A program made the translations under genes and the position numbers. The notes under the pieces were generated by a model. That model saw nothing but the letters and a program-made list of their open reading frames with translations, was not told where the DNA came from and ran no database searches. Shown piece by piece: positions 698 through 62,578 of a stretch of 64,000 bases of DNA. Every line of letters begins with the position of its first letter. Positions within the stretch are counted from its first letter, which is position 1. Origin of the DNA: Clostridia bacterium (GTDB lineage Bacteria; Bacillota; Clostridia; Christensenellales; UBA1242); assembly GCA_016283155.1 (NCBI GenBank), contig JAEEMI010000017.1:1-64000 (forward strand), read 5' to 3'.

Positions 698-758
698 TTG
701 ACTTTTTGTATTTGCAACGCTTAAACTGTAAATAGTTTTTGGGGGTTGGTAAAAACTA
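698..758 (+). promoter_or_regulatory. Promoter plus leader inverted repeat upstream of BspA-like gene 1
   Basis: TTGACT (698-703), 18 nt, TAAACT (722-727), then TAGTTTTT (733-740), 10-nt loop, AAAAACTA (751-758). Confidence 0.65.
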
Positions 759-770
759 AAGGGGGCGTTG

Positions 771-3700
771 ATGAAAAAAGTCTTGCGATTATTAGGTTTA
801 ATTTTAGTTTTGGTTGTGGTGTCAATTTTGCCAACGGCTTGTGGTTTTAAAGCATCCGAATATACGGTTAAATTTGTTACGTCAGGTGGCAGTGAAATTG
901 AAGATCAAAAAGTTAGTTATTATAGCCGAGTTGAAGAACAGACGCCCATCTATGTTGGTTATGAATTTCAGGGATGGTATTTAGATCAAGCATTAACCAA
1001 AAAATTTGATTATAGTACACCTGTAACACGCAATTTAATTTTGTATGCAAAATGGCAGGAAAGAAATTGTTTGTTAAAATTTTTACCAAATGGCGGAACA
1101 ACAGTTGAAGCCAGAACAGTTCCTTACTATGACTTAACTAGTGAACCAGTGGTTAAACGTTTAAACTTTGGTTTTATTGGCTGGTATACCGAAGATGGTC
1201 AATTGTTTGATTTTTCGATGCCAATTACTGGTGATTATACTTTAAAAGCTGAGTGGAGTGATAAGTTCACTTATGACAATGTTATCACAGGACAGTCGTA
1301 TAAAATTACCAGTTACACTGGTGATGCTGAAACTGTGGTTTTGCCAAAATCATATAATGGGGTTCCAGTAGTTGCTATCGCAGATGAAGCTTTGAAAAAT
1401 TGTACAGCAACATCAATTACGATTCCAGACAGTATAATGGGAATTGGTAATTCGGCGTTTGAAAGTTGTGCAAATTTGACTTCAATTTCTGTGCCGCGCA
1501 GTATCAGCGAGATTGGCAGTTTGGCCTTGAAAAATTGTGCTAAATTAACGTCGATTAAAGTTGATGCACGTAACGGTAAATATACCAGTCGCGATCAAGA
1601 AGGTAACGAAGTTAATGCTATTATTAATGGTAATACGCTGTTGTATGGTTGCCAAACTACGACAATTCCCAATTATATTAAAAATATTGGTGATTATGCT
1701 TTCTATTATTGCGGTAGTTTAACTGCTATTACAATTCCTAGTAGCGTTACCAAAATAGGTTCTGGAGCGTTTGCTTTCACAGGATTAACTTCAATTGTTA
1801 TTCCGAGCAGTGTAACCGAAATGAATAATTATGTTTTCAATGGTTGTTCAAAATTGCAAGCTGTTAATTGTGAAGCGATGGAACAACCGAGCAATTGGAA
1901 AAGTAGTTGGAAGAGTGGTTGGAATAATGGTGGTACTAATTACACCGAATGGGGTTATGGTTTGTTTACGTTCCCAGAAAATACAGATAGTAATGGACAC
2001 TTTGGCATTACTGGTTATACAGGAAATTTGAAGGAAATTGTTTTACCTCAATCACACTTAGGTTATCCAGTTACTTACATTGGGACAGAAGCATTTAAAA
2101 ATTGCACTCAATTAACTGCGGTAACTATTCCAAGCAAAATTACCACGATTGGTCAAAAAGCTTTCTTGGGTTGTACCGGTTTAACTACAATGGAAATTCC
2201 CAGTTCAGTAACTGATATGGGTAAATATGTGTTTTATAGTTGTGCAAACTTGAAATTGGTTCACGGTTTAGCGACGTCTGAACCGTCCAATTGGACCGCT
2301 GGATGGTTAAGTGGTTGTCAAGCCAAGGTGGTATTTGGTACGGTAGAAATTGATGGTAATTTTGTCTATCAGTTAGATTCAAATCGATACAAGTTATTAG
2401 CTTACATCGGTAATGCAACTAGCGTAAGTATTCCACAAACGCGCAGTGGTAAAGCAATCACTGTCATTGCTGAAAAAGCATTTGAAAACTGTCAGTTAAC
2501 TTCAATTACGATTCCAAACAGTATTGCCTCAATTGGGCATTATGCATTTAAAAATAGTGGTTTAACCTCAGTAACCATTCCGGGTTCGGTATCCACTTTC
2601 TTTGGTGATCATTCCTTTGAGGATTGTACCGCTTTAAAAACTGTTACAATTGAAAGTGGTGTACTACATATTGGCAATTCGGCTTTTGATGGCTGTAAAG
2701 CATTAACCAGTGTTAGCATTCCGGCTAGTGTTACCAGTACGGGCAGTTTTGTTTTTAGTGGTTGCACCAGTCTGACTTCAATTACATTACCAAGTAGTTT
2801 TACATATTTAGTGAATGGTCTGTTTTATGGTTGTACACAATTAAAAACTGTTACCTGTCAGGGAACAATAACACAGATTTATGAGATGGCTTTTGGGGGT
2901 TGTACTGCGTTAACGGCATACACAATTCCAAGTACAGTTACCAGTATTGGTAGTTATAGCTTTACAGATTCAGGATTAACCGCAATTACAATTCCAAGTA
3001 GTGTTACTGCAATGGGTGAGGGTGTATTTACCGATTGTGCCGATTTGGCAACAATTTATTATACATCTAGCACAAAGAAGCCAAGTGGTTGGGATGATAA
3101 TTGGAAGAGTAGTTGTAATGCCGCAATTGCCGTTACTGTTCCCAGTGGTACCACTAGTATTGCTAATAATGCTTTTAAAGATTGTACAGATTTGAAATCA
3201 GTTGGTATTCCAACAACAGTGAAATCAATTGGTACCAGTGCATTTGAGGGTTGTACTAATTTGAATCAAATTACTAATTTAGGACGTGTTACTGTGATTA
3301 GTGCATCAGCATTTAAAAATTGTCAGGCTCTAACCAGTTTTACGATTCCGAGTGGGGTAACAAGTATTAGTCAAGAAACATTCAATGGTTGTTCTGTTTT
3401 GAAAACGGTTGTTATTCCAAACGGAGTTACTACCATTAGTGATTATGCTTTTAGTTATTGTTTTGCATTAACAGCGATTGAAATTCCTAACAGCGTTACG
3501 ACGATTGGACAAGGTGCTTTTATCCAAACCGGTTTACAAACGGTTACTATCCCGGCCAGTGTTACCGCGATGGGAATTAACGTGTTTGCTTATGCTTTGA
3601 ATTTAACCAAGATTAATTGTGAGGCAGCGGCAAAACCAAGTAATTGGCAAACTAATTGCTTGAACTATTGTGGAGCCAAAGTTGAATGGGCGTATGGTCA

Positions 3701-4970
3701 ATTTGAATATACAGATTTAGATGAGAATAATCATTATGGTATTAAGCGTTACAAAGGTGATTTAACTGAAGTTTCAATTCCGAGAGAATATTTAAATTCA
3801 CCGGTTACCTTTATTGATAATCGAGCCTTTGAAAATAAGAGCAGTATTACAGCGGTTACCATTCCGAATACGATTACGCACATTGGCGAATCAGCATTTA
3901 ATACTTGTTCAAGCTTAACTACCATTACCATTCCAAATTCAATTACCAGTATGGGCAGATGGGCATTCGCTTATTGTTCAAATTTGATTACGGTAAACAT
4001 TACCGAGGGAGTACAGGTAATTGGCGAAAGTGCATTTTTAAACTGTACGGCATTAAAATCAATTATTATTCCAGCCAGTGTTACCAGTATTGGTACTAAT
4101 GCTTTCGGTAACTGTACGGCATTGAATTCACTGTCAGTTAATTCGGGTAACACGAAATACACAAGTTATGATAGTGGTACCGGTAGTGTCTTTAAAGGTA
4201 TTATGGATGTTTCTGATAGTGAAAACTATACATTAATTGCGGGTTGTAAAGCAACAACTATCCCCAGTTCAGTCAAAACGATTGGCAGATATGCGTTCCT
4301 TGGTTGTTCTGGTTTAACATCAATTACCATTCCAAATGGTGTAACCAAAATTGAAATTTGTGCTTTCGCAAATTGTACAGGTTTGACTTCAATCACAATT
4401 CCTGGCAGTGTTAAAATGATTGATGTCCAGGCATTTGGTGATTGCACAGGAATAACAACTGTTACCTTGTCAGAGGGGCTTCAATCAATTGGTAGTTATG
4501 CTTTTGCTGGTTGTACGGGATTAACCGAGATGACAATTCCGTCGAGTGTAACTACGATGGGAGAAAACGTTTTCTATAATTGTTCTGATTTAACGATGAT
4601 AAATTATTATGCGGCAACAAAGAATAAATACGGTTGGAATGAAAGTTGGAAAGGAAATGGTTGTCCTGCGAAGTATTCAATTACAGTGCCAAGTGATTTC
4701 TGGGCAATTCCGTCAATCGCTTTTGAGAATTGTACAGATTTGGTTTCCATTACAATTGGTAATAATATTAGTTATATTGGTGATGCTGCATTTAGAGGTT
4801 GTACTAATTTAACGACAATTACGATTCCAGCTACTGTAACCACAATGGGCAGTAAGGTGTTTGAGAATTGTTCAAATTTGACTAGAATTATGATTCTAGG
4901 TGGTACAGCGGGTTGGAGTCCAGACTGGAAGGGTAATTGTACGGCCTCAATTGATGATGGTGCGCACTAA
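771..4970 (+). CDS. BspA-type LRR_5 surface lipoprotein with two Listeria-Bacteroides (Flg_new) repeats
   Basis: Lipobox-like LPTAC after MKKVLRLLGLILVLVVVSI; two GWY..D......P.T....L.A.W repeats; many ~23-aa LTSITIPSSVTSIGxxAFxxC repeats. Confidence 0.9.
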   Translation: MKKVLRLLGLILVLVVVSILPTACGFKASEYTVKFVTSGGSEIEDQKVSYYSRVEEQTPIYVGYEFQGWYLDQALTKKFDYSTPVTRNLILYAKWQERNCLLKFLPNGGTTVEARTVPYYDLTSEPVVKRLNFGFIGWYTEDGQLFDFSMPITGDYTLKAEWSDKFTYDNVITGQSYKITSYTGDAETVVLPKSYNGVPVVAIADEALKNCTATSITIPDSIMGIGNSAFESCANLTSISVPRSISEIGSLALKNCAKLTSIKVDARNGKYTSRDQEGNEVNAIINGNTLLYGCQTTTIPNYIKNIGDYAFYYCGSLTAITIPSSVTKIGSGAFAFTGLTSIVIPSSVTEMNNYVFNGCSKLQAVNCEAMEQPSNWKSSWKSGWNNGGTNYTEWGYGLFTFPENTDSNGHFGITGYTGNLKEIVLPQSHLGYPVTYIGTEAFKNCTQLTAVTIPSKITTIGQKAFLGCTGLTTMEIPSSVTDMGKYVFYSCANLKLVHGLATSEPSNWTAGWLSGCQAKVVFGTVEIDGNFVYQLDSNRYKLLAYIGNATSVSIPQTRSGKAITVIAEKAFENCQLTSITIPNSIASIGHYAFKNSGLTSVTIPGSVSTFFGDHSFEDCTALKTVTIESGVLHIGNSAFDGCKALTSVSIPASVTSTGSFVFSGCTSLTSITLPSSFTYLVNGLFYGCTQLKTVTCQGTITQIYEMAFGGCTALTAYTIPSTVTSIGSYSFTDSGLTAITIPSSVTAMGEGVFTDCADLATIYYTSSTKKPSGWDDNWKSSCNAAIAVTVPSGTTSIANNAFKDCTDLKSVGIPTTVKSIGTSAFEGCTNLNQITNLGRVTVISASAFKNCQALTSFTIPSGVTSISQETFNGCSVLKTVVIPNGVTTISDYAFSYCFALTAIEIPNSVTTIGQGAFIQTGLQTVTIPASVTAMGINVFAYALNLTKINCEAAAKPSNWQTNCLNYCGAKVEWAYGQFEYTDLDENNHYGIKRYKGDLTEVSIPREYLNSPVTFIDNRAFENKSSITAVTIPNTITHIGESAFNTCSSLTTITIPNSITSMGRWAFAYCSNLITVNITEGVQVIGESAFLNCTALKSIIIPASVTSIGTNAFGNCTALNSLSVNSGNTKYTSYDSGTGSVFKGIMDVSDSENYTLIAGCKATTIPSSVKTIGRYAFLGCSGLTSITIPNGVTKIEICAFANCTGLTSITIPGSVKMIDVQAFGDCTGITTVTLSEGLQSIGSYAFAGCTGLTEMTIPSSVTTMGENVFYNCSDLTMINYYAATKNKYGWNESWKGNGCPAKYSITVPSDFWAIPSIAFENCTDLVSITIGNNISYIGDAAFRGCTNLTTITIPATVTTMGSKVFENCSNLTRIMILGGTAGWSPDWKGNCTASIDDGAH

Positions 4971-14208: not shown

Positions 14209-14271
14209 TTGATTTTTTATTGGGCAAAAGATATACTGCAAATAAGTTGTTTCGGCTTGGTAAAAACTAAT
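14209..14271 (+). promoter_or_regulatory. Promoter plus BspA-type leader motif, gene 2
   Basis: TTGATT, 17 nt, TATACT (14232-14237), then GCAAATAAGTTGTTTCGGCTTGGTAAAAACTAA (right arm conserved, left arm degenerate). Confidence 0.55.
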
Positions 14272-14290: not shown

Positions 14291-15268
14291 ATGAAAAAAG
14301 TTTTACGAATTTTGGCATTAACGTTGGTTATAATGTTGGTCAGTATTTTGCCGGCGGCTTGTGATTTATCATCAAAAAGAGAAACAACCGATACAACCAC
14401 TAAATATACAGTTACTTTTAATACACAAGATGGTAATAACGCGACCTTGAAACGTGTCGTTAAAGGAAGTACCGTTGAAGAATATATTCCAACCAGAGTA
14501 GGTTACGGTTTTATCGGTTGGTATACTCAAGATGGTGAGATGTTTGATTTTAGTACACCGATTAATTATAAATTGACGTTATTGGCCGAATGGACCGATG
14601 AACCATACACTTATGAATTTACTGATGAAAGCGAAACACAATATGCAATTACAGAATATACCGGTAATGCAGAAGTGTTGGTTTTGCCAAAAGCATATAA
14701 TGGTTTACCGGTTACTAAAGTTAATGATGCTGCATTTTGTGATAACAATACATTAAAATCAATTACCATTTCAAGTAGTATTACTGAACTTGGTGCTTAC
14801 ATAACACGTAACTGTCAAGCTTTAACAACGATTAAAGTTGACCCCAAAAATATTATCTATACCAGTCGTAATCGGGCAGGTAAGGATTGCAATGGTATTG
14901 TTAATGCAATTAGTAATAGCTTAGTTTTGGGCTGTAAGAATACAGAAATTCCAGATGGTGTTGCAAGTATTGCAGCGGGTGCATTTGCAATGTGTAAAAA
15001 TTTGTCGCTTACGGTTCCAAGTAGTGTTACACGAATTGGTGGTTTGGCATTTTGGGATTGTTCAATTGCAACATCGTTGACCTTTTTGGCAAAAACGATT
15101 GATTATATTGACGCATATGCTTTTAACGGTTGCAGGGGAACAATAAGATTTGGTTGTCAACAATCACAAGCGCAAACAACACCTTGGGATACAAATTGGA
15201 ATGGTGGTACTGGTAATGTCACATTTGTTTGGAATTACACACCACCGATAGATGACGATGCTAAATAA
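14291..15268 (+). CDS. BspA-type LRR_5 surface lipoprotein with one Flg_new repeat
   Basis: Lipobox-like LPAAC; GYGFIGWYTQDGEMFDFSTPINYKLTLLAEW; LRR_5 repeats. Confidence 0.87.
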   Translation: MKKVLRILALTLVIMLVSILPAACDLSSKRETTDTTTKYTVTFNTQDGNNATLKRVVKGSTVEEYIPTRVGYGFIGWYTQDGEMFDFSTPINYKLTLLAEWTDEPYTYEFTDESETQYAITEYTGNAEVLVLPKAYNGLPVTKVNDAAFCDNNTLKSITISSSITELGAYITRNCQALTTIKVDPKNIIYTSRNRAGKDCNGIVNAISNSLVLGCKNTEIPDGVASIAAGAFAMCKNLSLTVPSSVTRIGGLAFWDCSIATSLTFLAKTIDYIDAYAFNGCRGTIRFGCQQSQAQTTPWDTNWNGGTGNVTFVWNYTPPIDDDAK

Positions 15269-22875: not shown

Positions 22876-23228
22876 AAAAAACCCTTACGGGTTTTAATGA
22901 GTTAATCGTAAGCTGGGTTATGTCGAGGGCGCTCATCTATCTTGGTGTACCGTCACCGGCACGCTCGCGCGGTGTATGGATCGAGTTGACTGGCCGCCAT
23001 TAAATCCCGATCGCTAACCTTGCATCTCGTGGGGTTTACATTGCCACTACGGTCACCCGCAGTGCGGTGGGCTCTTACTCCGCCGTTTCACCCTTACCCG
23101 AAACCGGGCGGTTTGCTTTCTGTTGCACTGTCCTTCACGTCGCCGTGACAAGCCGTTAACTTGCACGATGCCATTTGATGCCCAGACTTTCCTCTGTTCA
23201 GTCACCCGAACAGCAAGCGCCTGATTAA
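22876..23228 (-). ncRNA. rnpB: RNase P RNA (type A-like)
   Basis: Minus strand reads CAGAGGAAAGTCTGGGC, ACAGAAAGCAAACCGCC, GGTAAGGGTGAAACGGCGGAGTAAGAGCCCACCG, AGATAGATGAGCGCCC, ACATAACCCAGCTTA. Promoter TTGTCA (23258-23263), 17 nt, TATGCT (23235-23240); terminator AAAACCCGTAAGGGTTTTTTT. Confidence 0.95.
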
Positions 23229-23318
23229 CGTTTCAGCATATCATATTGGTATTGAAATGACAAGTTAGTGCTTTTCCCTTTTACAAAAAAAGTATCTCGT
23301 GTTACAGTGATTTCTAGT

Positions 23319-33194: not shown

Positions 33195-33256
33195 TTGACC
33201 TTTATTTGCTTAATATGTTAAACTTAAATAGTTTTATTAGTTTTGTGAAAAACTAA
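33195..33256 (+). promoter_or_regulatory. Promoter plus BspA-type leader motif, gene 3
   Basis: TTGACC (33195-33200), 18 nt, TAAACT (33219-33224), then TAAATAGTTTTATTAGTTTTGTGAAAAACTAA; hairpin TTAGTTTT/AAAACTAA (33237-33256). Confidence 0.65.
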
Positions 33257-33271
33257 CAAAGGAGGAAATAT

Positions 33272-34267
33272 ATGCAAAAAAAATCAATGTATGTGGTTTT
33301 AAGTTTAGTATTGGCTGCAGTTGTGGCATCCTTAACTTTGGTGTTTACCATCGGACCAAAGGTTGATGCGGCAAAGGTTAAGACTTTAATACTTGATGAT
33401 GCAGGAGACTATTATATTAGTTACGATGGTGGTTGGGATGATAACTTGGGAGATTATTATTACTATAATATTTGTGTGGACGGTTTCGCTGATGAAATAG
33501 GTAATTATTTAGGTAGTATGACTTGTAGTTGGGATGGTGGTTGTGGTGCTTATAACTATCGTGAATTAGAAGAAATTCACATTAGTATTCCTAGTTCTAC
33601 ATATATTGATGGTTATGGATTTGATATTACCAGAATGACTGGATATCTTGCACAAGAAGGTGATCCACATTCTGTGTTCTACGGATATGATTCAAATTAT
33701 GGAACTTATGGTGATTATGCATCATATGTAACCAAGGTTGAATTACCAGATACGTTGGAAGAAATTGGCGACGCAACATTCTATGGTTGTGATAATTTAA
33801 GCAGTATTGTGTTGCCGGAAAATTTAACCACAATTGGTGATTGCGCGTTTGCAAATTGCAGCAGTTTATCCAAAGTTTTCATTATGGGTAATTCATTATC
33901 ATCAATTGGTGAAAATGTGTTTGATGGCTGTGATGATGAATTGCTAATCGTTGTGGAAGATGATTCGTTATTAACTGAACCGGCTTTCGATGGATTTAAT
34001 GTCAAAACTTTGACAGAATATAATGCTGAACAAGCCGCTAACCAAAACAACAACAATAATAATAACAACAATAATAACAACAATAACAACAATGGTAACG
34101 ATAATGGCAATGCCAATACTACGACCGAAACCAATTCTGAAGTCAAAAACCAAAACAATACCGCAGTAGTGGCTGCTGTTGCTGGTACCGCTGGTGGTGC
34201 TGCTGGTTTGGGAACAATCGGAACCATCTTTGGTGTGGTTGTATCGAAGAAACGTAAAAAACTATAA
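33272..34267 (+). CDS. BspA-type surface protein with Asn-rich linker and Gly-rich C-terminal TM plus basic tail
   Basis: Signal peptide; LRR_5 repeats; N-rich run; AAVAGTAGGAAGLGTIGTIFGVVVSKKRKKL. Confidence 0.8.
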   Translation: MQKKSMYVVLSLVLAAVVASLTLVFTIGPKVDAAKVKTLILDDAGDYYISYDGGWDDNLGDYYYYNICVDGFADEIGNYLGSMTCSWDGGCGAYNYRELEEIHISIPSSTYIDGYGFDITRMTGYLAQEGDPHSVFYGYDSNYGTYGDYASYVTKVELPDTLEEIGDATFYGCDNLSSIVLPENLTTIGDCAFANCSSLSKVFIMGNSLSSIGENVFDGCDDELLIVVEDDSLLTEPAFDGFNVKTLTEYNAEQAANQNNNNNNNNNNNNNNNNGNDNGNANTTTETNSEVKNQNNTAVVAAVAGTAGGAAGLGTIGTIFGVVVSKKRKKL

Positions 34268-36196: not shown

Positions 36197-37546
36197 ATGC
36201 ATAAAAAAGGATTATTTGCGGCGTTGGGTGTGGTACTTGCCACGGTCGTTGCATCATTAACGTTGGTGTTTACGGTGGGACCCAAAGTTAGCGCGGATAG
36301 TTTTATTGTTTTAGCCGATGAAGAGTATTACGACATTGATGATTATGGCGTATTACACGGTCTTTCACAATATGGTTATGAATATGTCAACAATTATTGT
36401 TGGTATGTTAACCACATTTATTTAGAAATTCCGGAAGGCGTAGTCCAAATCGGAAGTTGTTACAATAATGGTGGAGGTAAAGATGCAGGTAATGGTAGAG
36501 ACAAAGTAGTTAATATGAGTGTCTCACCGAAATCATTGGAAGTAACTTGTGGCGGATGGTATGATGCTGTAGAAGAAGGTCCGAGTGATTATTGGAATGG
36601 TTGGAATATTAATGGTAATGGTGGTTATGGCAGAATTGCTGGGGTTACTTTGCCAGAAAGTTTGGAAATTATTGGTGATAATTCTATATTCTCAAGTTTC
36701 TATAATTTGACCAGTATTGAATTACCAGAAAATTTACAGTACATTGGTTCTAGTGCATTTCAAGATTGTTCGTATTTAACCAGTATTACGATACCAGATG
36801 CTGTTACCGAAATTGGTTCTTATGCTTTCAGTGGTTGTTATAATTTAACCAGTGTCAAAATGGGCAATGATTTGGAATATATCGATAATTATGCATTCCA
36901 ATATTGTAATAGTTTGACCAGTGTTAAATGGTCGGAAAATTTGATTGGAATTGGTGAATCTGCATTTGCTTATTGTTACAAATTAAAAGCAGCAAAATTG
37001 CCAGACACAATGCAAAACATTGGTAATAATGCCTTTTCTAATTGCTGGGCATTGAGCCAAGTGAAGTTGCCAAATAATGACCAAGATGAAGATGGTTGTG
37101 AAATTGGTAGTTATGCATTTGCGGGTTGTAGTAGTTTAGCGACCATTGCCATTCCTAACACGATTACGTATATTGGTAACAATGCATTTTATGCTTGCGG
37201 TGATAATTTCGAGATTAATTGCGAATGCTTAGAAGATGATGCTGCCGTGAGTAATTGGGACGGAGATTGGAATTATAATGAAACATATGTTGATAATGGT
37301 TGGAACGACGCATATTACGTTCCAAAGTGGGGCGTGCCATTTGTTGCACCACAAATTGTTGATGAAATTGAACAAAATCAAAATCAAAATAATGAAACCG
37401 CTACCGAAGTCGTTGCCGATGAAACCCCAGTGAATAATACCGGAGTGGTGGCTGCCGTAGCAGGAACCGCCGGTGGTGCCGCAGGTTTAGGAACAATGGG
37501 AACTATCTTTGGTATTGTGGTTGGTCGTAAACGTAAAAAATTATAA
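36197..37546 (+). CDS. BspA-type surface protein, paralog of 33272-34267
   Basis: AAAGGAGG before ATG 36197; LRR_5 repeats; VVAAVAGTAGGAAGLGTMGTIFGIVVGRKRKKL tail. Promoter TTGCAG...TATAAT without the hairpin motif. Confidence 0.85.
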   Translation: MHKKGLFAALGVVLATVVASLTLVFTVGPKVSADSFIVLADEEYYDIDDYGVLHGLSQYGYEYVNNYCWYVNHIYLEIPEGVVQIGSCYNNGGGKDAGNGRDKVVNMSVSPKSLEVTCGGWYDAVEEGPSDYWNGWNINGNGGYGRIAGVTLPESLEIIGDNSIFSSFYNLTSIELPENLQYIGSSAFQDCSYLTSITIPDAVTEIGSYAFSGCYNLTSVKMGNDLEYIDNYAFQYCNSLTSVKWSENLIGIGESAFAYCYKLKAAKLPDTMQNIGNNAFSNCWALSQVKLPNNDQDEDGCEIGSYAFAGCSSLATIAIPNTITYIGNNAFYACGDNFEINCECLEDDAAVSNWDGDWNYNETYVDNGWNDAYYVPKWGVPFVAPQIVDEIEQNQNQNNETATEVVADETPVNNTGVVAAVAGTAGGAAGLGTMGTIFGIVVGRKRKKL

Positions 37547-52180: not shown

Positions 52181-52241
52181 TTTACAAATTTAGGATTTTC
52201 CGCTAAACTGTAAATAGTTTTGTTACTTTTTGACAAAACTA
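52181..52241 (+). promoter_or_regulatory. Promoter plus BspA-type leader hairpin, gene 5
   Basis: TTTACA (52181-52186), 17 nt, TAAACT (52204-52209), then TAGTTTTG (52215-52222), 11-nt loop, CAAAACTA (52234-52241). Confidence 0.65.
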
Positions 52242-52276
52242 AAGCAGGAAAATTTTGCTGTAATGGGGAACAGAAG

Positions 52277-55200
52277 ATGAAAAAAAGGTTAAAGGTATTG
52301 ATATCGCTACTGATTATTGTAGTGATAGGTTCTTTAGCAGTTGTTGGTGCAATGTTCTTCTTACCTAATGAATTTAATTTCCTTAACTTTAATAAAAAAT
52401 CAGAGCAGACAGTAGAAAAACAATATACAATCAACTTTGATCCTTGTGGTGGCGATGTAATGACATCCACTCAAGTTGCCGAAGGTGCACAACTAGCGGA
52501 AGTAGTACCAACTTGGGAAAGCTATGAATTTAAAGGTTGGTATTTGGATGAAAGTTATAAACAGAAATATGATTTTTCGACGCCTGTAACAAGTGACTTG
52601 ACTTTGTATGCTAAATGGCCGGTTAATATTACAAAATTATATAAATTTGAAGCTGCGGCCGATAATCAATCGTATGTTTTGGCCCAATATAAAGTAAATA
52701 CACAAACAGACTTGATTTTACCAAAATCTTATAATAATTTGCCGGTTACAGTGATTAAAGCTAATGCTTTTAATAATCGTAATAATTTAAATACAATAAC
52801 AATTCCAAATAGTTATGTTGAAATTAAAAATGACGTATTTAACAATTGTTACAATCTTAATTCGGTTAAAATTTCAAGTAGTGTTACAAAAATTGGACGT
52901 AACGCTTTCAGTGGGGTTAATTATGACTGTAAATTCTATTGTGAAGCATTGAAAAAGCCAAGTGGTTGGAATGTGTATTGGAATTCAAATACAAATGCTT
53001 CAAATTATGGTAACCAAAGTAATGAGTATTTAAATTGGGGTTGTAAGGTAGATGCTTCGTTTGTGTTTGCTTTGGCTAGTGATGCAACTTCATATGAAGT
53101 GATTTCTTATATGGATTCGTCCAAAGTGGTTGAAATTCCTGCGGAATATAATGAAAAACCAGTTATTGCAATCGGTGATAGTGCTTTTCAAAGTAGCAAT
53201 ATTACTAGAGTAACTCTACCCAATACAATTCAAAGTATTGGTAGTTATGCATTCTCTGATTGCCGAAATTTAACAACTATTAATTTCTCCGATAATATGA
53301 TTAATATTGGTAACTCTGCTTTCTATGGGTGTGTAGGATTATCAAACATTGATATACCAGATAGTATCGAGTATATTGGTAACAGTGCTTTTAATTCTTG
53401 TTCTAATTTGGAAACTGTTAAACTTCCAGCCAATATAACCAGTATTGAAAATTATACTTTTAGTTATTGTAATAGTTTGTATTCTGTGATTATTCCTGAT
53501 GGGGTAACCAGTATTGGTGAATATGCTTTTAATCATTGTACCAATTTAGAGTCAATTGAATTGCCAAGTAGTGTTGAATGGATTGGTTCGGATGCTTTTT
53601 GTGACTGCAATCAATTAACTATGGTTGTCATCCCCGAAAATGTAACGGAAATTAATTATCAGACATTTTATAGTTGTGATAATTTAAGCACGGTAACTTT
53701 GCCAAGTAATTTAACCAGTATTGGTCGTTACGCATTTCAAAATTGTTCTAGTTTAACTGAAATTGAAATTCCCACCGCAGTTAATAATGTGGATTATTAT
53801 GCTTTTGGTGATTGTAATAACTTGATCACAGTAAAAATATTAAGCCCTAATGTAAATTTGGATAGTTATGCGTTTAGTAATTGTAATGCGATTACAAATC
53901 TAACCATCCCGGGTAATTTGTCTTTTGGCTATCGTAGTAGTATAACATCAGTAACCATTGCCGATGATTCAATCAGCATTCGCGATGGTGCTTTTCGATC
54001 TTGGAGTAGTCTATCAACGGTGGTGATTCCTGATAGTGTTACGACAATTGGTAACAATGCATTCTATAATTGTTACAATCTAACCGAAATTACGATTCCA
54101 AGCGGTGTTACCACTGTTGGTGAAGGTGCATTTTCAGGTTGTACTGGTTTAAATTCAATTAGTATGCCCACTGGTGTAAATGGTATTGGTGCAAATTCAT
54201 TCTATGGGTGTACCAGTATAACCTCGATGAATTATTTAGGGACCTTAGATCAATATGCGCAAATTAATTTTGCTAATGCTTTCTCAAACCCGATTTATTA
54301 CACTCATAAATTAATTATCAATGGTGAAGAAATCACTAATGCTGTAATTTCTACTGGTACGACCAGTATTGGTTCATATGTATTCTATGGATGTGCTGAC
54401 ATAGCCTCAATTACAATTCCAAGTAGTGTGACCAGTATTGGAGAAAATGCATTTAGCAAATGTACAAGTTTAACCTCAATTACAATTCCAGAAAACGTTA
54501 CTAGTATTGGGGGTTATGCATTTAGCGAATGTACTAAAATCAAGTCAATTATTATTCCGGTTAGTGTAAACAGTATGGGCGCATATGTGTTTATGAATTG
54601 GACGGCTGATCAAAGAATTTATTGTGGCTGCTCTTCAAAACCAAGCAATTGGAATGATGCTTGGAGTTATATTTCTAGTAATAGTAGTACTTGTTATTCT
54701 AAAATAATATGGAATTGTGCTGATATCAGTTTTGATATGCAATATGCATACCGCTCAATTAAGAATAAATCGGAATATGAAATTGCGGATTATTTTGGTA
54801 ATGAATGCGATGTTACCATTCCACAAATATATGATAATAAATCAGTTACAAGTGTTGGTTCATATGTGTTCAAAGGTTGTGATAAGATGACATCAGTTGT
54901 GTTGCCTAATACAATTACTAAAATTGATGAATATGCCTTTTATCAATGTGATGGTTTATTGATTGTTGTAATCCCAAATAGTGTCACTAGTATTGGAAAA
55001 GCTGCATTCTCTGGTTGTAGTAGTTTGGAATCAGTAACGTTACCAGGTAATCTTGATTTTAGTAGTGAACATAGTATATTTAGTTATTGTAGTAATTTGT
55101 CAACAATAACAGTTTCCAAAGAATCGACGAAAATTGGTAATTATTTATTTTATGGTTGCAGCCAATTAACTAATATTGTAATTCCAAATAGTGTAACAAA

Positions 55201-58200
55201 TATCGGTCAATACGCATTTGGTAATTGTACTGGATTAATCTCAATCAATATACCGTATGGTGTTACAAATATTGATACGTATGCATTCAGTGGTTGTTCT
55301 AATTTGTCTTTAGTTGAAATTCCAGATAGTGTGATTAGTATTGGTAACTATGCATTTAGTAGTTGTACAGGTTTAAATTCAATTGTAATTCCGGAAAATG
55401 TTTTGATAATGGGACAATGTGTGTTTGCTAATTGGACTAGTACGCAATATGTTCATTTTGAAGCAAATTCGAAACCGAGTACTTGGAATTCGAGTTGGCA
55501 AAGCAATTGTAATGCGAGTGTTTATTGGGGAGTATTAACAACAGATAATTTCGTTTATAAAGTAGATGGTCAATCATTATCAATTATAGGTTACAACGGT
55601 AATGAAATTGACGTTATTATTCCAGCAACATATAACAATTTACCAGTTACGTCTATTGTTAATAATTTATTTAAGAATTGCACCAATTTAATTTCAGTTG
55701 TAATTCCAGACAGTGTCACTAGTATTGGGCAATATGCATTTAGTGGTTGTACCGGATTAACTTCAGTGACAATTTCCAGTAGTGTAACCAGTATTGGGGA
55801 TTATGCATTTTCAGGTTGTACTGGTTTGGTTTCACTTGTAATTCCGAATAGTGTAACGAGTGTTGGTTCGCGTGCATTTAATGGATGGACACAACGACAA
55901 CATCTTTGCTGTGAAGTAGATTCAAAACCAAGTAATTGGGTTTCGTCGTGGAATTCAGGTAGTAATAATCAAATTATTTGGGGTTATGTAGGCTCTGATG
56001 CTTTTGATAGTCAATATAGATATCAATTGATTGATGATGGGGCTAATTATGAAATTGTTGAATATTTCGGTAATGATGGTGCGGTTGTAATTCCTCAAGA
56101 GTATAATAACAAACCAGTTACGAGTATTGGAGGAAGTGTATTTTATAATCGTAAAGGTTTAACATCAATCACAATTCCAGATAGTGTCACTAATATAGGT
56201 TCGTATGCGTTCTATCAATGCACTGGATTAACGTCGATTACAATTCCAGACAGTGTCACCAGTATTGGCGAATATGCATTCGATGGATGTACCGGATTAA
56301 CCTCAATCACGATTCCGAGTAGTGTAACCAGTATTGGTGGTTATGCATTCAATGGTTGCACTGGATTAACCTCAATCACGATTCCAAGTAGTGTTACCAG
56401 CGTCGGACAATATGCATTCGGAAATTGTACAGGATTAACCTCAATCACGATTCCAAGTAGTGTTACCAGCGTTGGACAATATGCATTCTATCGTTGTACT
56501 GGGTTAACCTCAGTTACAATTGCGGGCAGCTTTGGTTCGTATATGTTCCAGTATTGTAGAAATTTAACTTCCGTTGAAATATTAAATGGTGTAACCAGTA
56601 TTGGAGAATATGCATTCTATGAATGTACCGGATTAACCTCAATTAACATTCCAAGTAGTGTTACCAGCGTCGGACAACATGCATTCTATGATTGTACTGG
56701 ATTTACCTCAATTAATATTCCAAGTAGTGTAACCAGTATTGGACAAGGTGCATTCAGTGGTTGTACTGGATTAACCTCAATTAACATTCCAAGTAGTGTT
56801 ACCAGTATTGGAAGCGGTGTATTCTATTTTTGTACAGGATTAACTTCAATAAATTACTTAGGAACGTTAGAACAATGGTTACAGATTCAGTTTGGTGGTC
56901 ATATAATAAGTAATTCAAATGAAACATCGTTGATAATTGATGATGAAGAGGTTATCAACGTGGTAGTTCCCAATGGTGTCACCGGTATTGGACAATATGC
57001 TTTCGCTTGTTGTAAGAGTTTAACGTCAATTGTAATTCCTGACGGTGTCACCAGTATTGGACAATATGCATTTAATGGTTGTACTGGATTAACCTCAATT
57101 AACATTCCAAGTAGTGTAACCAGTATTGGACAATATGCATTCAGTAATTGTACAAGATTAACGTCGATTACCATTCCTGAAAGTGTTACTAGTGTTGGTT
57201 ACTATGCGTTTTATAATTGGACCAATAGTCAACGTGTTTACTGTGAGGCAAGTTCAAAACCAAGTGGTTGGAGTGATACATTATCTGGATTGCAGAATTT
57301 TTTCATTTGGGGTTGTACTAACATTAGTATTGAAAACCAATTTATATATAAATTAATTAATGATGAAACATCTTATGAAATTGTTGCCTATGTTGGTAAT
57401 GATACAGAAATTATCATTCCAGAATTATATAATAATAAATCGATTACAAGTATTGGTGTAAATGTATTTAGAGGTAATAATAATTTAATTTCAATTACCA
57501 TTTCTGACCGTGTCACCAGTATTGGTGGTTATGCATTCAGTGGTTGCACTGGATTAACCTCAATTACAATTCCAGGTAGTGTCACCAGTATTGGTGGTTA
57601 TGCATTCAGTGGTTGCACTGGATTAACCTCAATTACAATTCCAGGTAGTGTCACCAGTATTGGTTATGATGCATTTTATGGTTGCACAAATTTAACTTCT
57701 GTTGAGATATTGAATGGTGTTACCAGCATCGGACAATATGCATTCAGTAGTTGCACTGGATTAACCTCAATCACAATTCCAGGCAGTGTCACCAGTATTG
57801 ATTATGGTGCATTTAATGGTTGTACAAATTTAACTTCAATGAATTACTTAGGAACGTTAGAACAGTGGGTTCAAATTGTATTTAATGGTTATTATGCAAA
57901 TCCGTTATATTTCACACATAAATTGGTAATTAACGGTGAAGAAGTTACAAATGCGGTAGTTTCCAATGGTCAAACCGAAATTAAACCATATGCTTTTTAT
58001 ACCTGTCGTAACTTAACCTCAATCACAATTGATAGTGTCACTAATATAGGTTCGTATGCGTTCTATGAATGTACCGGATTAACGTCGATTACAATTCCAA
58101 GTAGTGTAACCAGTATTGGGCAAGATGCATTCAGAAATTGTACAGGATTAACCTCAATCACGATTCCAAGTAGTGTTACCAGCGTTGGTTCGTATGCATT

Positions 58201-61200
58201 CTATGGATGTACCGGATTAACCTCAATTACAATTGCGGGCAGCTTTGGTTCGTATATGTTCCAGTATTGTAGAAATTTAACTTCCGTTGAAATATTAAAT
58301 GGTGTAACCAGTATTGGAGAATATGCATTCTATGAATGTACCGGATTAACGTCGATTACAATTCCAAGTAGTGTAACCAGTATTGGACAAGATGCATTCA
58401 GAAATTGTACAGGATTAACCTCAATCATGATTCCAAGTAGTGTAACCAGTATTGGACAAGGTGCATTCGATGGATGTACCGGATTAACCTCAATTAACAT
58501 TCCAAGTAGTGTTACCAGTATTGAAGACAATGTATTCTATGGTTGTACCGGATTAACCTCAATTACAATTCCAGACAGTGTCACTAGTATTGGATCGAGT
58601 ACATTCAGTAATTGTACAGGATTAACCTCAATTAATATTCCAAGTACTGTTACCAGCATTGGATATGATGCATTCGGTGGTTGTACTAAGTTAATTGTAA
58701 TTAAGATTCCGTATAGTGTAACCAATATGGGGAGTTCTGTATTTAGTGGTTGGACAAATCGACAAACGATTTATTTAGTAAGAAATTCTAGTCCAAGTGG
58801 GTGGACGTCAAATTGGAACGGCAGTTGTTCCGCCACAATCGGGTGGAACTCAAATATAGCAGATGATGGTCAATTCTATTATCGCTATGAAAGCCGTATT
58901 ATACGTTATATTGGTAATGATACTGTGGTTACAATTCCAGAAAAATATAATGATTATACAATTACTGTGATTGAAAAGAGTGCATTCTCTGGCTACACCG
59001 GATTGACCGCAATTACCATTCCAGATGGAGTTACCAGTATTGGAGAATATGCATTCGATGGATGTACTGGATTAACCTCAATTAACATTCCAAGTAGTGT
59101 TACCAGTATTGGACAATATGCATTTAGAGGTTGTACCAATTTAAAATCAATTATAATTCCAAATAGTGTTAAGTATATTAGCGATTACGCATTTTCTGGT
59201 TGGACAAATAATCAAAGAATTTATTGCGAAGCTAGTACACAACCAAATACTTGGGGATCTGATTGGAAAAAATCTTGTAGTGCTATTGCGATTTGGGGTT
59301 GTAGCAATTTAAGCAATGATGGGCGATTTATTTATCGCTTGGTTACTGGCGTAACTAATAAATATGAAATTTATGGATATATTGGTGATGATACCGCAGT
59401 TACAATTCCAGAAAAATATAATAATATTTCAGTTACTACTATTGGTGCATATGTATTCTATTGTTGCACAGGATTAACTTCAGTTATAATTCCAGACACT
59501 GTTACCAGTATTGGAGAATATGCATTCTATGGATGTACTGGATTAACCTCAATTAACATTCCAAGTAGTGTTAATAGTATTGATCAATACGCGTTTTCAA
59601 ACTGTATTGGTTTACATAGAATAACGATACCTAGTACAGTGTTAATTGTTAATGCTTATGCGTTTAACGACTGGACCGCCAGTCAGAAAATTATGTGTGA
59701 AGCAACTTCACAACCAAGTTATTGGAGTTCAAATTGGTTATCTTATTGTAACGCAAAAGTAATTTGGGATTATTTGAATATGCCTGTTGATGACCAATTT
59801 GGATATAAATTAGTTAATGATGGAACTGAATATCAAATTATTACATACATTGGTGATGCAACTGAAATTACTATTCCACAAAGTTACAATAACAAGCCAA
59901 TTACTAGTATTGGTGAATATGCATTTAACGGTTGTAAGAATATAACATCAATTAGTATTACAGATAATATTACCGGCATTGGTTCGTATGCGTTCTATCA
60001 ATGCACTGGATTAACCTCAATTAACATTCCAAGTAGTGTCACCAGTATTGGACAATATGCATTCGGAAATTGTACAGGATTAACCTCAATCACGATTCCA
60101 AGTAGTGTTACCAGCGTTGGACAATATGCATTCTATCGTTGTACTGGGTTAACCTCAGTTACAGTTGCGGGCAGCTTTGGTTCGTATATGTTCCAGTATT
60201 GTAGAAATTTAACTTCCGTTGAAATATTAAATGGTGTAACCAGTATTGGATATTATGCATTCTATGGATGTACCGGATTAACCTCGATTACCATTCCGGA
60301 TGGTGTTACCAGTATTGGAGGATATGCATTCGATGGATGTACTGGATTAACCTCAATTAATATTCCAAGTAGTGTTACCGGCATTGGTACGTATGCATTC
60401 AGTGGTTGTACTGGATTAACCTCAATCACGATTCCAAGTAGTGTCACCAGTATTGGAGAACGTGCAATTAATAGTTGGACAAAAGATCAAAAAATTTATA
60501 TTGAGGCAAGTTCAATGCCAAGTAATTGGAGTTCATATTGGGCAGCAAATTGCAATGCAAAAATAATTTGGAACTACCGAAATGTAATTTGTGATGATCA
60601 ATTTGTTTATCGACTAATTAATAATGGAACAGAGTATGAAATAGTTGAATACATTGGTAATGATACGGCTATTACGATACCAGAATCGTATAATAGTAAA
60701 CCGGTTACAAGTATTAGTTCAAATGCATTCAAATATAATAATAATTTAATTTCAGTCATTATGCCAAATACAATAACAAATCTTGGAGGATCTGCATTTT
60801 ATGGTTGTACAGAATTAACCTCAATTAATATTTCAAGTAGTGTCACCAGTATTGGAAATTATACATTCTATGAATGTAATAGATTAACCTCGGTTATAAT
60901 TCCTGACAGTGTTACCAGCATTGGTAATTATGCATTCTATAATTGTGCAAAGTTGACCTCAATTAATATTCCAAATGATATTACTTGCATCAATAATTAT
61001 GTATTCTATGGATGTACAAAATTAACGTCAATTATTCTTCCAAAAGGTGTCACTAGTATTGGAGAATATGCATTCTATAATTGTACTAGCTTATACTCAA
61101 TTAAAATTCCAGTTAGCGTGACTAGTATTGGAAATTATGCATTTTATAAACTAGGAACATACATCATTAATATTCCTGGCGTTGTTACTAGTATGGGATC

Positions 61201-62578
61201 AAACGTATTCTCCGGTTGGACTTCTACTAAACGTATTTATTTTGCTGGGGTTAGTGCACAACAAAGTGGTTGGAATACAAATTGGCAATATTCGTGCAGT
61301 GCAAATGTGTTTTGGAAACAATATTATTCGAATAATTTAATTTATCGTATCAATAGTTATAAGAATGGAGATATTGCGTCACTATCAGTTAGCGGCTATT
61401 ACTCTTATAGTGGAACAAATCTTGTTATTCCAGAAACTTGCGATAGTATACCCGTTACTTCTATTTATGAAAATGCTTTTAAAGATTCTTCATTTGTATC
61501 TGTTTCAATTTCTAGTAGTGTCACCAGCATTGGTGCGTATGCATTCTGTGGATGTACAAGGTTAACCTCAATTGATATTTCAAGTAGTGTTACCAGTATT
61601 GGACAATATGCATTTAGAGATTGTACTGGATTAATCTCAATTAATATTCCAAGTAGTGTCAACAGTATTGGTATGTATGCATTCTATGGTTGTACAAATT
61701 TGAAATCAATTATAATTCCAAGTAGTGTTATGTCTATTAATAATTATGCATTTTATAATTGGACAAAAGATCAAAAAATTTATTTTGAGGCAAGTTCAAA
61801 ACCAAATAATTGGTGGGCAGTAAATTGCAATGCAAAAATAATTTGGAACTACCGAAATGTAATTTGTGATGATCAATTTGCCTATCGACCAATTAATAAT
61901 GGAACAGAGTATGAAATAGCTGAATACATTGGTAATGATACAGCTATTACGATACCAGAAACCTATAATAATAAATTAATTACAGGTATAGGTAATTATG
62001 CGTTCTATCGCGATACTGGTTTGACGTCAGTTAGTATGCCAAATACAATAACAAGGATTGACGAGTATGCGTTCTATGGCTGTACGAATTTGAGTTCAAT
62101 TATCATACCAGGTAATGTCACAAGTATTGGAACAAATGTATTTGGTTTATGGAAACCAACTCAAATAATTTATTTTGAAGCAAGTTCGCAACCTAATAAC
62201 TGGAATATTGATAGTCACGCACGACTTATCTGGAATTATACAGATGTGATAATTATAGATGGTTTTGTATTGCAATTAATTAATAATGGTACTGAGTACC
62301 AAGTTATTGTTTATATTGGTAACGCTACAGTGATTACCGTTCCACAAGAATATAATAACAAACCAATTATAAGTATTTGTGAACGTGCATTCTATAATTG
62401 CACTGGTATCACCTCTATTATAATTCCTGAAAGTGTTACCAATATTTGCAGTTATGCATTTGCTAATTGGTCGGCTAACCAAACGATTAATTGTGTTGCG
62501 GCTACTGCGCCAAGCAATTGGCTATTAGGTTGGAATTATGCCTGCGATGCCACTATCGTTTGGAATTATACAGAGTAA
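52277..62578 (+). CDS. Giant BspA-type LRR_5 surface protein (~3433 aa)
   Basis: N-terminal TM/signal anchor, one Flg_new repeat, then LRR_5 blocks (GLTSITIPSSVTSIGQYAFSGCT) separated by PSNWxxxW linkers. Confidence 0.93.
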   Translation: MKKRLKVLISLLIIVVIGSLAVVGAMFFLPNEFNFLNFNKKSEQTVEKQYTINFDPCGGDVMTSTQVAEGAQLAEVVPTWESYEFKGWYLDESYKQKYDFSTPVTSDLTLYAKWPVNITKLYKFEAAADNQSYVLAQYKVNTQTDLILPKSYNNLPVTVIKANAFNNRNNLNTITIPNSYVEIKNDVFNNCYNLNSVKISSSVTKIGRNAFSGVNYDCKFYCEALKKPSGWNVYWNSNTNASNYGNQSNEYLNWGCKVDASFVFALASDATSYEVISYMDSSKVVEIPAEYNEKPVIAIGDSAFQSSNITRVTLPNTIQSIGSYAFSDCRNLTTINFSDNMINIGNSAFYGCVGLSNIDIPDSIEYIGNSAFNSCSNLETVKLPANITSIENYTFSYCNSLYSVIIPDGVTSIGEYAFNHCTNLESIELPSSVEWIGSDAFCDCNQLTMVVIPENVTEINYQTFYSCDNLSTVTLPSNLTSIGRYAFQNCSSLTEIEIPTAVNNVDYYAFGDCNNLITVKILSPNVNLDSYAFSNCNAITNLTIPGNLSFGYRSSITSVTIADDSISIRDGAFRSWSSLSTVVIPDSVTTIGNNAFYNCYNLTEITIPSGVTTVGEGAFSGCTGLNSISMPTGVNGIGANSFYGCTSITSMNYLGTLDQYAQINFANAFSNPIYYTHKLIINGEEITNAVISTGTTSIGSYVFYGCADIASITIPSSVTSIGENAFSKCTSLTSITIPENVTSIGGYAFSECTKIKSIIIPVSVNSMGAYVFMNWTADQRIYCGCSSKPSNWNDAWSYISSNSSTCYSKIIWNCADISFDMQYAYRSIKNKSEYEIADYFGNECDVTIPQIYDNKSVTSVGSYVFKGCDKMTSVVLPNTITKIDEYAFYQCDGLLIVVIPNSVTSIGKAAFSGCSSLESVTLPGNLDFSSEHSIFSYCSNLSTITVSKESTKIGNYLFYGCSQLTNIVIPNSVTNIGQYAFGNCTGLISINIPYGVTNIDTYAFSGCSNLSLVEIPDSVISIGNYAFSSCTGLNSIVIPENVLIMGQCVFANWTSTQYVHFEANSKPSTWNSSWQSNCNASVYWGVLTTDNFVYKVDGQSLSIIGYNGNEIDVIIPATYNNLPVTSIVNNLFKNCTNLISVVIPDSVTSIGQYAFSGCTGLTSVTISSSVTSIGDYAFSGCTGLVSLVIPNSVTSVGSRAFNGWTQRQHLCCEVDSKPSNWVSSWNSGSNNQIIWGYVGSDAFDSQYRYQLIDDGANYEIVEYFGNDGAVVIPQEYNNKPVTSIGGSVFYNRKGLTSITIPDSVTNIGSYAFYQCTGLTSITIPDSVTSIGEYAFDGCTGLTSITIPSSVTSIGGYAFNGCTGLTSITIPSSVTSVGQYAFGNCTGLTSITIPSSVTSVGQYAFYRCTGLTSVTIAGSFGSYMFQYCRNLTSVEILNGVTSIGEYAFYECTGLTSINIPSSVTSVGQHAFYDCTGFTSINIPSSVTSIGQGAFSGCTGLTSINIPSSVTSIGSGVFYFCTGLTSINYLGTLEQWLQIQFGGHIISNSNETSLIIDDEEVINVVVPNGVTGIGQYAFACCKSLTSIVIPDGVTSIGQYAFNGCTGLTSINIPSSVTSIGQYAFSNCTRLTSITIPESVTSVGYYAFYNWTNSQRVYCEASSKPSGWSDTLSGLQNFFIWGCTNISIENQFIYKLINDETSYEIVAYVGNDTEIIIPELYNNKSITSIGVNVFRGNNNLISITISDRVTSIGGYAFSGCTGLTSITIPGSVTSIGGYAFSGCTGLTSITIPGSVTSIGYDAFYGCTNLTSVEILNGVTSIGQYAFSSCTGLTSITIPGSVTSIDYGAFNGCTNLTSMNYLGTLEQWVQIVFNGYYANPLYFTHKLVINGEEVTNAVVSNGQTEIKPYAFYTCRNLTSITIDSVTNIGSYAFYECTGLTSITIPSSVTSIGQDAFRNCTGLTSITIPSSVTSVGSYAFYGCTGLTSITIAGSFGSYMFQYCRNLTSVEILNGVTSIGEYAFYECTGLTSITIPSSVTSIGQDAFRNCTGLTSIMIPSSVTSIGQGAFDGCTGLTSINIPSSVTSIEDNVFYGCTGLTSITIPDSVTSIGSSTFSNCTGLTSINIPSTVTSIGYDAFGGCTKLIVIKIPYSVTNMGSSVFSGWTNRQTIYLVRNSSPSGWTSNWNGSCSATIGWNSNIADDGQFYYRYESRIIRYIGNDTVVTIPEKYNDYTITVIEKSAFSGYTGLTAITIPDGVTSIGEYAFDGCTGLTSINIPSSVTSIGQYAFRGCTNLKSIIIPNSVKYISDYAFSGWTNNQRIYCEASTQPNTWGSDWKKSCSAIAIWGCSNLSNDGRFIYRLVTGVTNKYEIYGYIGDDTAVTIPEKYNNISVTTIGAYVFYCCTGLTSVIIPDTVTSIGEYAFYGCTGLTSINIPSSVNSIDQYAFSNCIGLHRITIPSTVLIVNAYAFNDWTASQKIMCEATSQPSYWSSNWLSYCNAKVIWDYLNMPVDDQFGYKLVNDGTEYQIITYIGDATEITIPQSYNNKPITSIGEYAFNGCKNITSISITDNITGIGSYAFYQCTGLTSINIPSSVTSIGQYAFGNCTGLTSITIPSSVTSVGQYAFYRCTGLTSVTVAGSFGSYMFQYCRNLTSVEILNGVTSIGYYAFYGCTGLTSITIPDGVTSIGGYAFDGCTGLTSINIPSSVTGIGTYAFSGCTGLTSITIPSSVTSIGERAINSWTKDQKIYIEASSMPSNWSSYWAANCNAKIIWNYRNVICDDQFVYRLINNGTEYEIVEYIGNDTAITIPESYNSKPVTSISSNAFKYNNNLISVIMPNTITNLGGSAFYGCTELTSINISSSVTSIGNYTFYECNRLTSVIIPDSVTSIGNYAFYNCAKLTSINIPNDITCINNYVFYGCTKLTSIILPKGVTSIGEYAFYNCTSLYSIKIPVSVTSIGNYAFYKLGTYIINIPGVVTSMGSNVFSGWTSTKRIYFAGVSAQQSGWNTNWQYSCSANVFWKQYYSNNLIYRINSYKNGDIASLSVSGYYSYSGTNLVIPETCDSIPVTSIYENAFKDSSFVSVSISSSVTSIGAYAFCGCTRLTSIDISSSVTSIGQYAFRDCTGLISINIPSSVNSIGMYAFYGCTNLKSIIIPSSVMSINNYAFYNWTKDQKIYFEASSKPNNWWAVNCNAKIIWNYRNVICDDQFAYRPINNGTEYEIAEYIGNDTAITIPETYNNKLITGIGNYAFYRDTGLTSVSMPNTITRIDEYAFYGCTNLSSIIIPGNVTSIGTNVFGLWKPTQIIYFEASSQPNNWNIDSHARLIWNYTDVIIIDGFVLQLINNGTEYQVIVYIGNATVITVPQEYNNKPIISICERAFYNCTGITSIIIPESVTNICSYAFANWSANQTINCVAATAPSNWLLGWNYACDATIVWNYTE
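56404..60250 (+). repeat. Dispersed near-identical cassettes encoding AGSFGSYMFQYCRNLTSVEILNGVTSIG
   Basis: Copies at about 56522-56605, 58234-58317, 60166-60249; first and third share ~200 nt with very few differences. Confidence 0.85.
57511..57664 (+). repeat. Exact tandem duplication of a 69-nt LRR_5 unit
   Basis: TGTCACCAGTATTGGTGGTTATGCATTCAGTGGTTGCACTGGATTAACCTCAATTACAATTCCAGGTAG repeated at 57511 and 57580. Confidence 0.9.

Follow-up and report, generated by a model that had tools for sequence, protein, structure and literature searches.

A promoter-linked leader element with inverted-repeat arms recurs before BspA-family surface-protein genes in uncultured gut Clostridia

Results and discussion

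Leader elements of the BspA genes

The window, that is, the whole stretch of 64,000 nucleotides that was analyzed, lies on contig C26 of a 0.96-Mb draft genome (G000) from the small-genome gut Clostridia, and it carries five BspA genes, in all of which Pfam detects LRR_5. Four of these genes, starting at 771, 14291, 33272 and 52277 of the forward strand, have a promoter-plus-hairpin leader in common (Table 1). In this leader, TAGTTTT-N12/13-AAAACTA begins 4-5 nt past a -10 hexamer of sequence TAWACT (TAAACT or TATACT), with the left arm degraded to TAAGTTG before gene 14291; then come a short spacer, a Shine-Dalgarno (SD) sequence and a secreted BspA/Flg_new gene. The element has a nearly constant length of 26-28 nt, and its start 4-5 nt 3′ of the -10 is also found in the covariance-model matches described below. 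A preliminary description of this DNA had reported the shared -10 and arm sequences before these four genes, and all of them were found where it had placed them. Promoters were predicted from sequence, and the genome-wide statements on G000 rest on searches.

Table 1. Features of the window, with G-tract promoters of related genomes; covariance-model E-values are rough.
Feature	Position	Strand	Description
Promoter of gene 771	698-727	+	-35 TTGACT (698-703), 18-nt spacer, -10 TAAACT (722-727); sequence and promoter scoring
Hairpin of gene 771	733-758	+	TAGTTTTT / AAAAACTA, loop GGGGGTTGGT; begins 5 nt past the -10; model E 2.3e-4
BspA gene	771-4970	+	Lipoprotein-type signal; Pfam LRR_5 8e-240, Flg_new 1.1e-20
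Promoter of gene 14291	14209-14237	+	-35 TTGATT, 17-nt spacer, -10 TATACT (14232-14237); promoter scoring
Degenerate element of gene 14291	14243-14269	+	Left arm TAAGTTG, right arm AAAAACTA; model E 0.0106
BspA gene	14291-15268	+	Lipoprotein-type signal; Flg_new, LRR_5 (Pfam)
RNase P RNA, bacterial class A	22894-23232	-	251 bits
Promoter of gene 33272	33195-33224	+	-35 TTGACC, 18-nt spacer, -10 TAAACT (33219-33224); promoter scoring
Element of gene 33272	33229-33256	+	Left arms TAGTTTT (33229-33235) and TTAGTTTT (33237-33244), single right arm AAAACTAA; model E 0.0212
BspA gene	33272-34267	+	MxKK...VVASLTLVFTxGPK signal peptide; LRR_5
BspA gene without the element	36197-37546	+	Plain TATAAT promoter, short leader
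Promoter of gene 52277	52181-52209	+	-35 TTTACA, 17-nt spacer, -10 TAAACT (52204-52209); promoter scoring
Hairpin of gene 52277	52215-52241	+	TAGTTTTGT / ACAAAACTA; RNA stem of about 11 bp, -9.7 kcal/mol; model E 1.3e-4
Second small hairpin, leader of gene 52277	52243-52259	+	Between the element and the SD; predicted fold
Giant BspA gene	52277-62578	+	About 3430 aa; Flg_new, LRR_5
G runs between -35 and -10 (relatives)	G002:C14:77, G002:C20:34256, G007:C13:20380, G007:C7:7147-7167
G runs between -35 and -10 (relatives)	G001:C8:19954, G001:C33:70576, G005:C19:15261, G006:C52:1066

Three of the copies had been described as clean hairpins, and the arms are indeed present at 771, 33272 and 52277; nevertheless, the hairpin drawn for gene 33272 (33237-33256) uses the second left arm, which is also the one chosen by RNAfold, whereas it is the first left arm that lines up with those of the other copies, giving a 27-nt element. 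The copy of gene 14291 retains its right arm, as had been noted, and the predicted fold at 14232-14270 differs from the TAGT/ACTA hairpin. The reported lack of the element before gene 36197 was likewise borne out.

A search of the window for TAGTTTT-N{3,14}-AAAACTA returned four overlapping matches against 0.03 expected (0/100 shuffles), which sit only before genes 771, 33272 and 52277. In the whole of G000, the pattern AGTTTT-N{2,20}-AAAACTAA was found at only two places besides the leaders, C3:108505 and C3:124642, both within coding sequence. The -10-like half-motif by itself was no more frequent than expected by chance, and the arm pattern searched with a fixed gap and two mismatches did no better than its reversed control. 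A fifth copy lies past the window on the same contig (G000:C26:83474-83510), before the BspA gene at C26:83551, and Pfam identifies LRR_5 genes downstream of all five G000 copies.

Besides gene 36197, several other BspA genes of G000 are not preceded by the element: the gene at C26:79728, two on contig C18, and those on C6 and C25. On C10 (L070), a BspA lipoprotein gene has a shorter hairpin in its leader, TAGTAT-TTGTATG-ATACTA, about 16 nt past the -10, which is possibly a diverged sixth relative of the element in this genome. In the C25 leader (L075, BspA gene at L075:2751, reverse strand), outer arms TAGTGG/CCACTA directly follow the -10, and a direct repeat, GAAACCGACTACT / GAAACCGACCACT, lies inside them.

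Distribution among related genomes

The leaders of LRR_5 genes were read in nine members of the genus, and the layout recurs, with other arm sequences, in two further uncultured Clostridia assemblies of the same genus as G000: G007, matched to CAMOZC01, and G002, matched to JAFZSF01 (water-buffalo rumen). The arms read TAGTATTTG-N8-CAAATACTA in G007 and TAGTAT...ATATTA in G002. When the exact-arm pattern was searched in 60 relatives, matches were obtained in 12 genomes including G000, and those outside G000 lay in coding sequence or without a matching promoter; thus, the exact arms do not travel. A covariance model of the five G000 copies (R2) found two or three true G007 copies together with chance matches. 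A second model (R3), built from 21 copies and run over 120 relatives at E ≤ 0.1 with the stricter filters that apply at that genome count, identified 28 copies in three draft genomes (G000 with five, G002 with eight and G007 with 15), while the remaining 117 had none; these are counts that overstate independence because the copies within one genome are paralogues.

All 28 copies are followed by an SD sequence and a signal-peptide gene. The downstream gene encodes LRR_5 in 23 cases and Flg_new only in two (G007 L142:6186-7085 and G002 L190:485-1486), and it is cut by a contig end in the remaining three. A weaker G007 copy (L244) precedes a lipoprotein gene with no Pfam match; together with the Flg_new-only genes, it indicates that the target class is not restricted to LRR_5 proteins but comprises secreted surface proteins, most of them BspA. 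The specificity for BspA-type genes raised in the preliminary description holds across three species. In several of these proteins the C-terminal end is a hydrophobic stretch followed by KRRRK or RRRR, likely a membrane anchor.

RNA hairpin or DNA site

The element had been proposed to be either a co-regulating operator or a 5′-terminal RNA hairpin controlling stability or translation. The RNA alternative is favored by changes that keep G.U pairs, by strand asymmetry, by covariation of the arms and by 5′ hairpins of unrelated sequence in relatives, and we consider it fairly likely that the element acts as an RNA hairpin in the mRNA. Control of translation by hiding the SD is unlikely, since the SD is not part of the hairpin and its distance from it varies.

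The outer TAGT/ACTA arms are strongly conserved, but both partners of the adjoining pair differ from species to species. Column pair 16/35 reads A-U in the G007 and G002 copies, U-A in G000 and G.U in two copies. The third pair (column pair 14/37) is G-C, G.U or A-U. The covariation score was 0.219, against 0.138 ± 0.023 in shuffled alignments (0 of 500 shuffles as high), and the signal was lost on sliding the partners; on a 25-sequence alignment with two inner pairs added it was weaker, 36 of 500 shuffles being as high. One-sided changes comprise seven distinct G.U states and one A.C state (binomial P ~0.035 if they are independent). Sense folding beats antisense folding in 27 of 35 elements, and for 16 representatives the summed sense-antisense difference was -51.8 kcal/mol, compared with -11.1 ± 6.9 in same-composition shuffles; as this control does not preserve palindromes, the strand difference is supportive rather than conclusive.

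The predicted RNA stem is strong in G007, at 771 and at 52277; at 14291 and in the main group of G002 copies it is weak or missing. The G007 hairpins have 10-12 bp and reach -12 kcal/mol, with shuffle z-scores of -4.5 to -6.6 in seven leaders, and the G007:C6 copy keeps its stem through several U.G pairs. The main G002 group has about -3.3 kcal/mol and a competing fold, and in the copy of gene 33272 it is the antisense strand that folds better. The two divergent G002 leaders, on C30 and C20, still have a hairpin, though its distance or length differs, and two other relatives, G001 and G005, have leaders with 5′ hairpins of unrelated sequence, which in G001 are GGGCA/TGCCC and, in another copy, GGGGC/GCCCC.

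As a DNA operator, the arms would be TAGTNTTT half-sites about two helical turns apart, at about +1 to +27, for a hypothetical dimeric regulator that co-controls the surface genes. We regard this explanation as unlikely, even though it would account for the nearly constant arm spacing and the constant distance to the -10 in three species, for the conserved outer TAGT/ACTA, and for the retention of the motif both at 14291, where one half-site is good, and in the weakly folding G002 copies. Matched arm changes between species would also result from a change in regulator specificity. Inverted-repeat repressor operators located 3′ of a promoter resemble the element in their two-fold symmetric arms and their fixed position relative to the -10; they differ in that the changes of the element follow RNA pairing on one strand. 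A DNA site predicts neither the seven-to-one excess of G.U-keeping one-sided changes nor the better folding of the sense strand, and the divergent leaders retain hairpins with other lengths or sequences.

That the element is part of a promoter cassette duplicated together with paralogous surface genes, by descent and gene conversion and with no function beyond that of a working promoter and leader, seems to us distinctly improbable. Leaders and signal peptides are near-identical among the G007 copies and among the G002 copies, and contigs often break at element-bearing genes, both of which speak for such copying. Nevertheless, the element-bearing genes of G000 differ in their signal peptides and genes with a G007-type signal peptide can be without the element, so that simple hitch-hiking with one gene type is insufficient; in addition, arms and spacing are retained despite the divergence of loops and flanks, and the arms change together between species. 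A hairpin serving as the site of a hypothetical trans-acting protein or small RNA that would coordinate translation or decay, instead of shielding passively, is very doubtful, for although the conserved outer UAGU...ACUA and the constant length point to something beyond a simple stem, the loops are not conserved between species and the G001 and G005 leaders use other sequences.

Other candidates were rejected: an intrinsic terminator or attenuator (the stem is AU-rich, with no U tract, and an SD follows), an SD-hiding thermometer (the SD is outside the hairpin, at a variable distance), an invertible promoter (the arms are only 12-13 nt apart), and a riboswitch or other Rfam family, none of which matched the element at gathering score in the window or in four related loci.

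Proposed role of the hairpin

Our preferred reading, to which we assign a probability of about 0.5, is that these leaders form a family of promoter-leader units whose 5′-terminal mRNA hairpin shields the transcript against decay by RNase J. The arm starts at a constant position with respect to the -10, whereas the SD, which in all copies lies 3′ of the right arm, is at a distance that varies from about 0 to 40 nt. With the arm 4-5 nt past a good -10, the base of the stem coincides with the predicted +1. The position of the arm is tied to the -10, and through it to the expected +1, rather than to the SD, a layout that fits a hairpin closing the 5′ end of the transcript. G000 has an RNase J gene (C6:9859-11487, 550 bits).

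We propose that a sigma-A-type promoter with a TAWACT -10 would transcribe the element into a hairpin that lies at the predicted mRNA 5′ end or no more than a few bases from it. Folded in this way, it may hide the 5′ end and block 5′-end-dependent decay by RNase J, with the SD staying free throughout, and the surface-protein mRNAs could thereby become long-lived and be expressed in step. Three observations count against a stabilizer: the 14291 copy lacks the hairpin fold, the 33272 copy folds better as antisense, and the main G002 group is weak. The nearly constant length of the element also counts against a plain stabilizing hairpin, which would not need it. AU-rich stems are modest stabilizers.

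To our knowledge, leader families that are conserved and tied to one class of surface genes have seldom been described in the open-access literature, and the stabilizing 5′ hairpins known to us have been described gene by gene. The element thus offers a sequence handle on the possible co-expression of many BspA surface proteins in uncultivated small-genome gut Clostridia and, as a defined RNA element, is testable in Bacillus.

In Bacilli, long mRNAs are stabilized by a hairpin located at the 5′ end or close to it (PMC3997798), and the aprE work on such stabilization is cited in PMC7509114. Like the aprE leader of Bacillus subtilis and the ompA leader of Escherichia coli (reviewed in PMC3997798 and PMC7509114), the leaders described here would have their hairpin at the 5′ end or directly beside it, with an unpaired SD further 3′; further likenesses are that the host encodes RNase J and that the genes are for exported proteins. 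Unlike those stabilizers, the element occurs in multiple copies, each before a different gene of a single functional class; its outer sequence and its length are maintained between species, it is linked to a TAWACT -10, and here we infer the stabilization.

G-tract promoters in relatives

Several surface-protein promoters of the relatives contain runs of 8 to 18 G between -35 and -10 (Table 1), lengths to be read with the caveat that homopolymers can be wrong in draft assemblies. The spacing between -35 and -10 at these loci is about 13 to 21. The only two runs of at least nine G in G002 are both in BspA promoters. The pattern TTGAC-N{0,12}-G8-TA had nine matches, distributed over four relatives, whereas its reversed version had none; the pattern is absent from G000, where there is no G run of nine or more. 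The sequence of these promoters suggests slipped-strand phase variation of promoter strength in the relatives, and with it cell-to-cell variation of the BspA repertoire.

For Candidatus Mycoplasma girerdii, intragenic repeats have been reported to cause phase variation of BspA proteins (PMC5476646). The resemblance lies in an expanded BspA family in a small-genome Firmicute and in putative switching by simple repeats. The dinucleotide repeats of M. girerdii shift the reading frame, whereas the G tracts sit within the promoter, between -35 and -10, and the genome of the window has none of nine or more G. It is conceivable, if doubtful, that both features belong to one genus-wide module, in which an optional slippage-prone G-tract promoter would switch single BspA genes and the 5′-terminal RNA hairpin would set the stability or shared control of those mRNAs that are on.

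In G001 (L236, L238 and L240), a repeated promoter, TTGACAAAC-G(n)-TACCCTATCTTGGGGCAGTTTATGCCC, was observed before secreted proteins, and its -10 is directly followed by a hairpin whose sequence is a different one; one copy starts at a contig end, within the G run.
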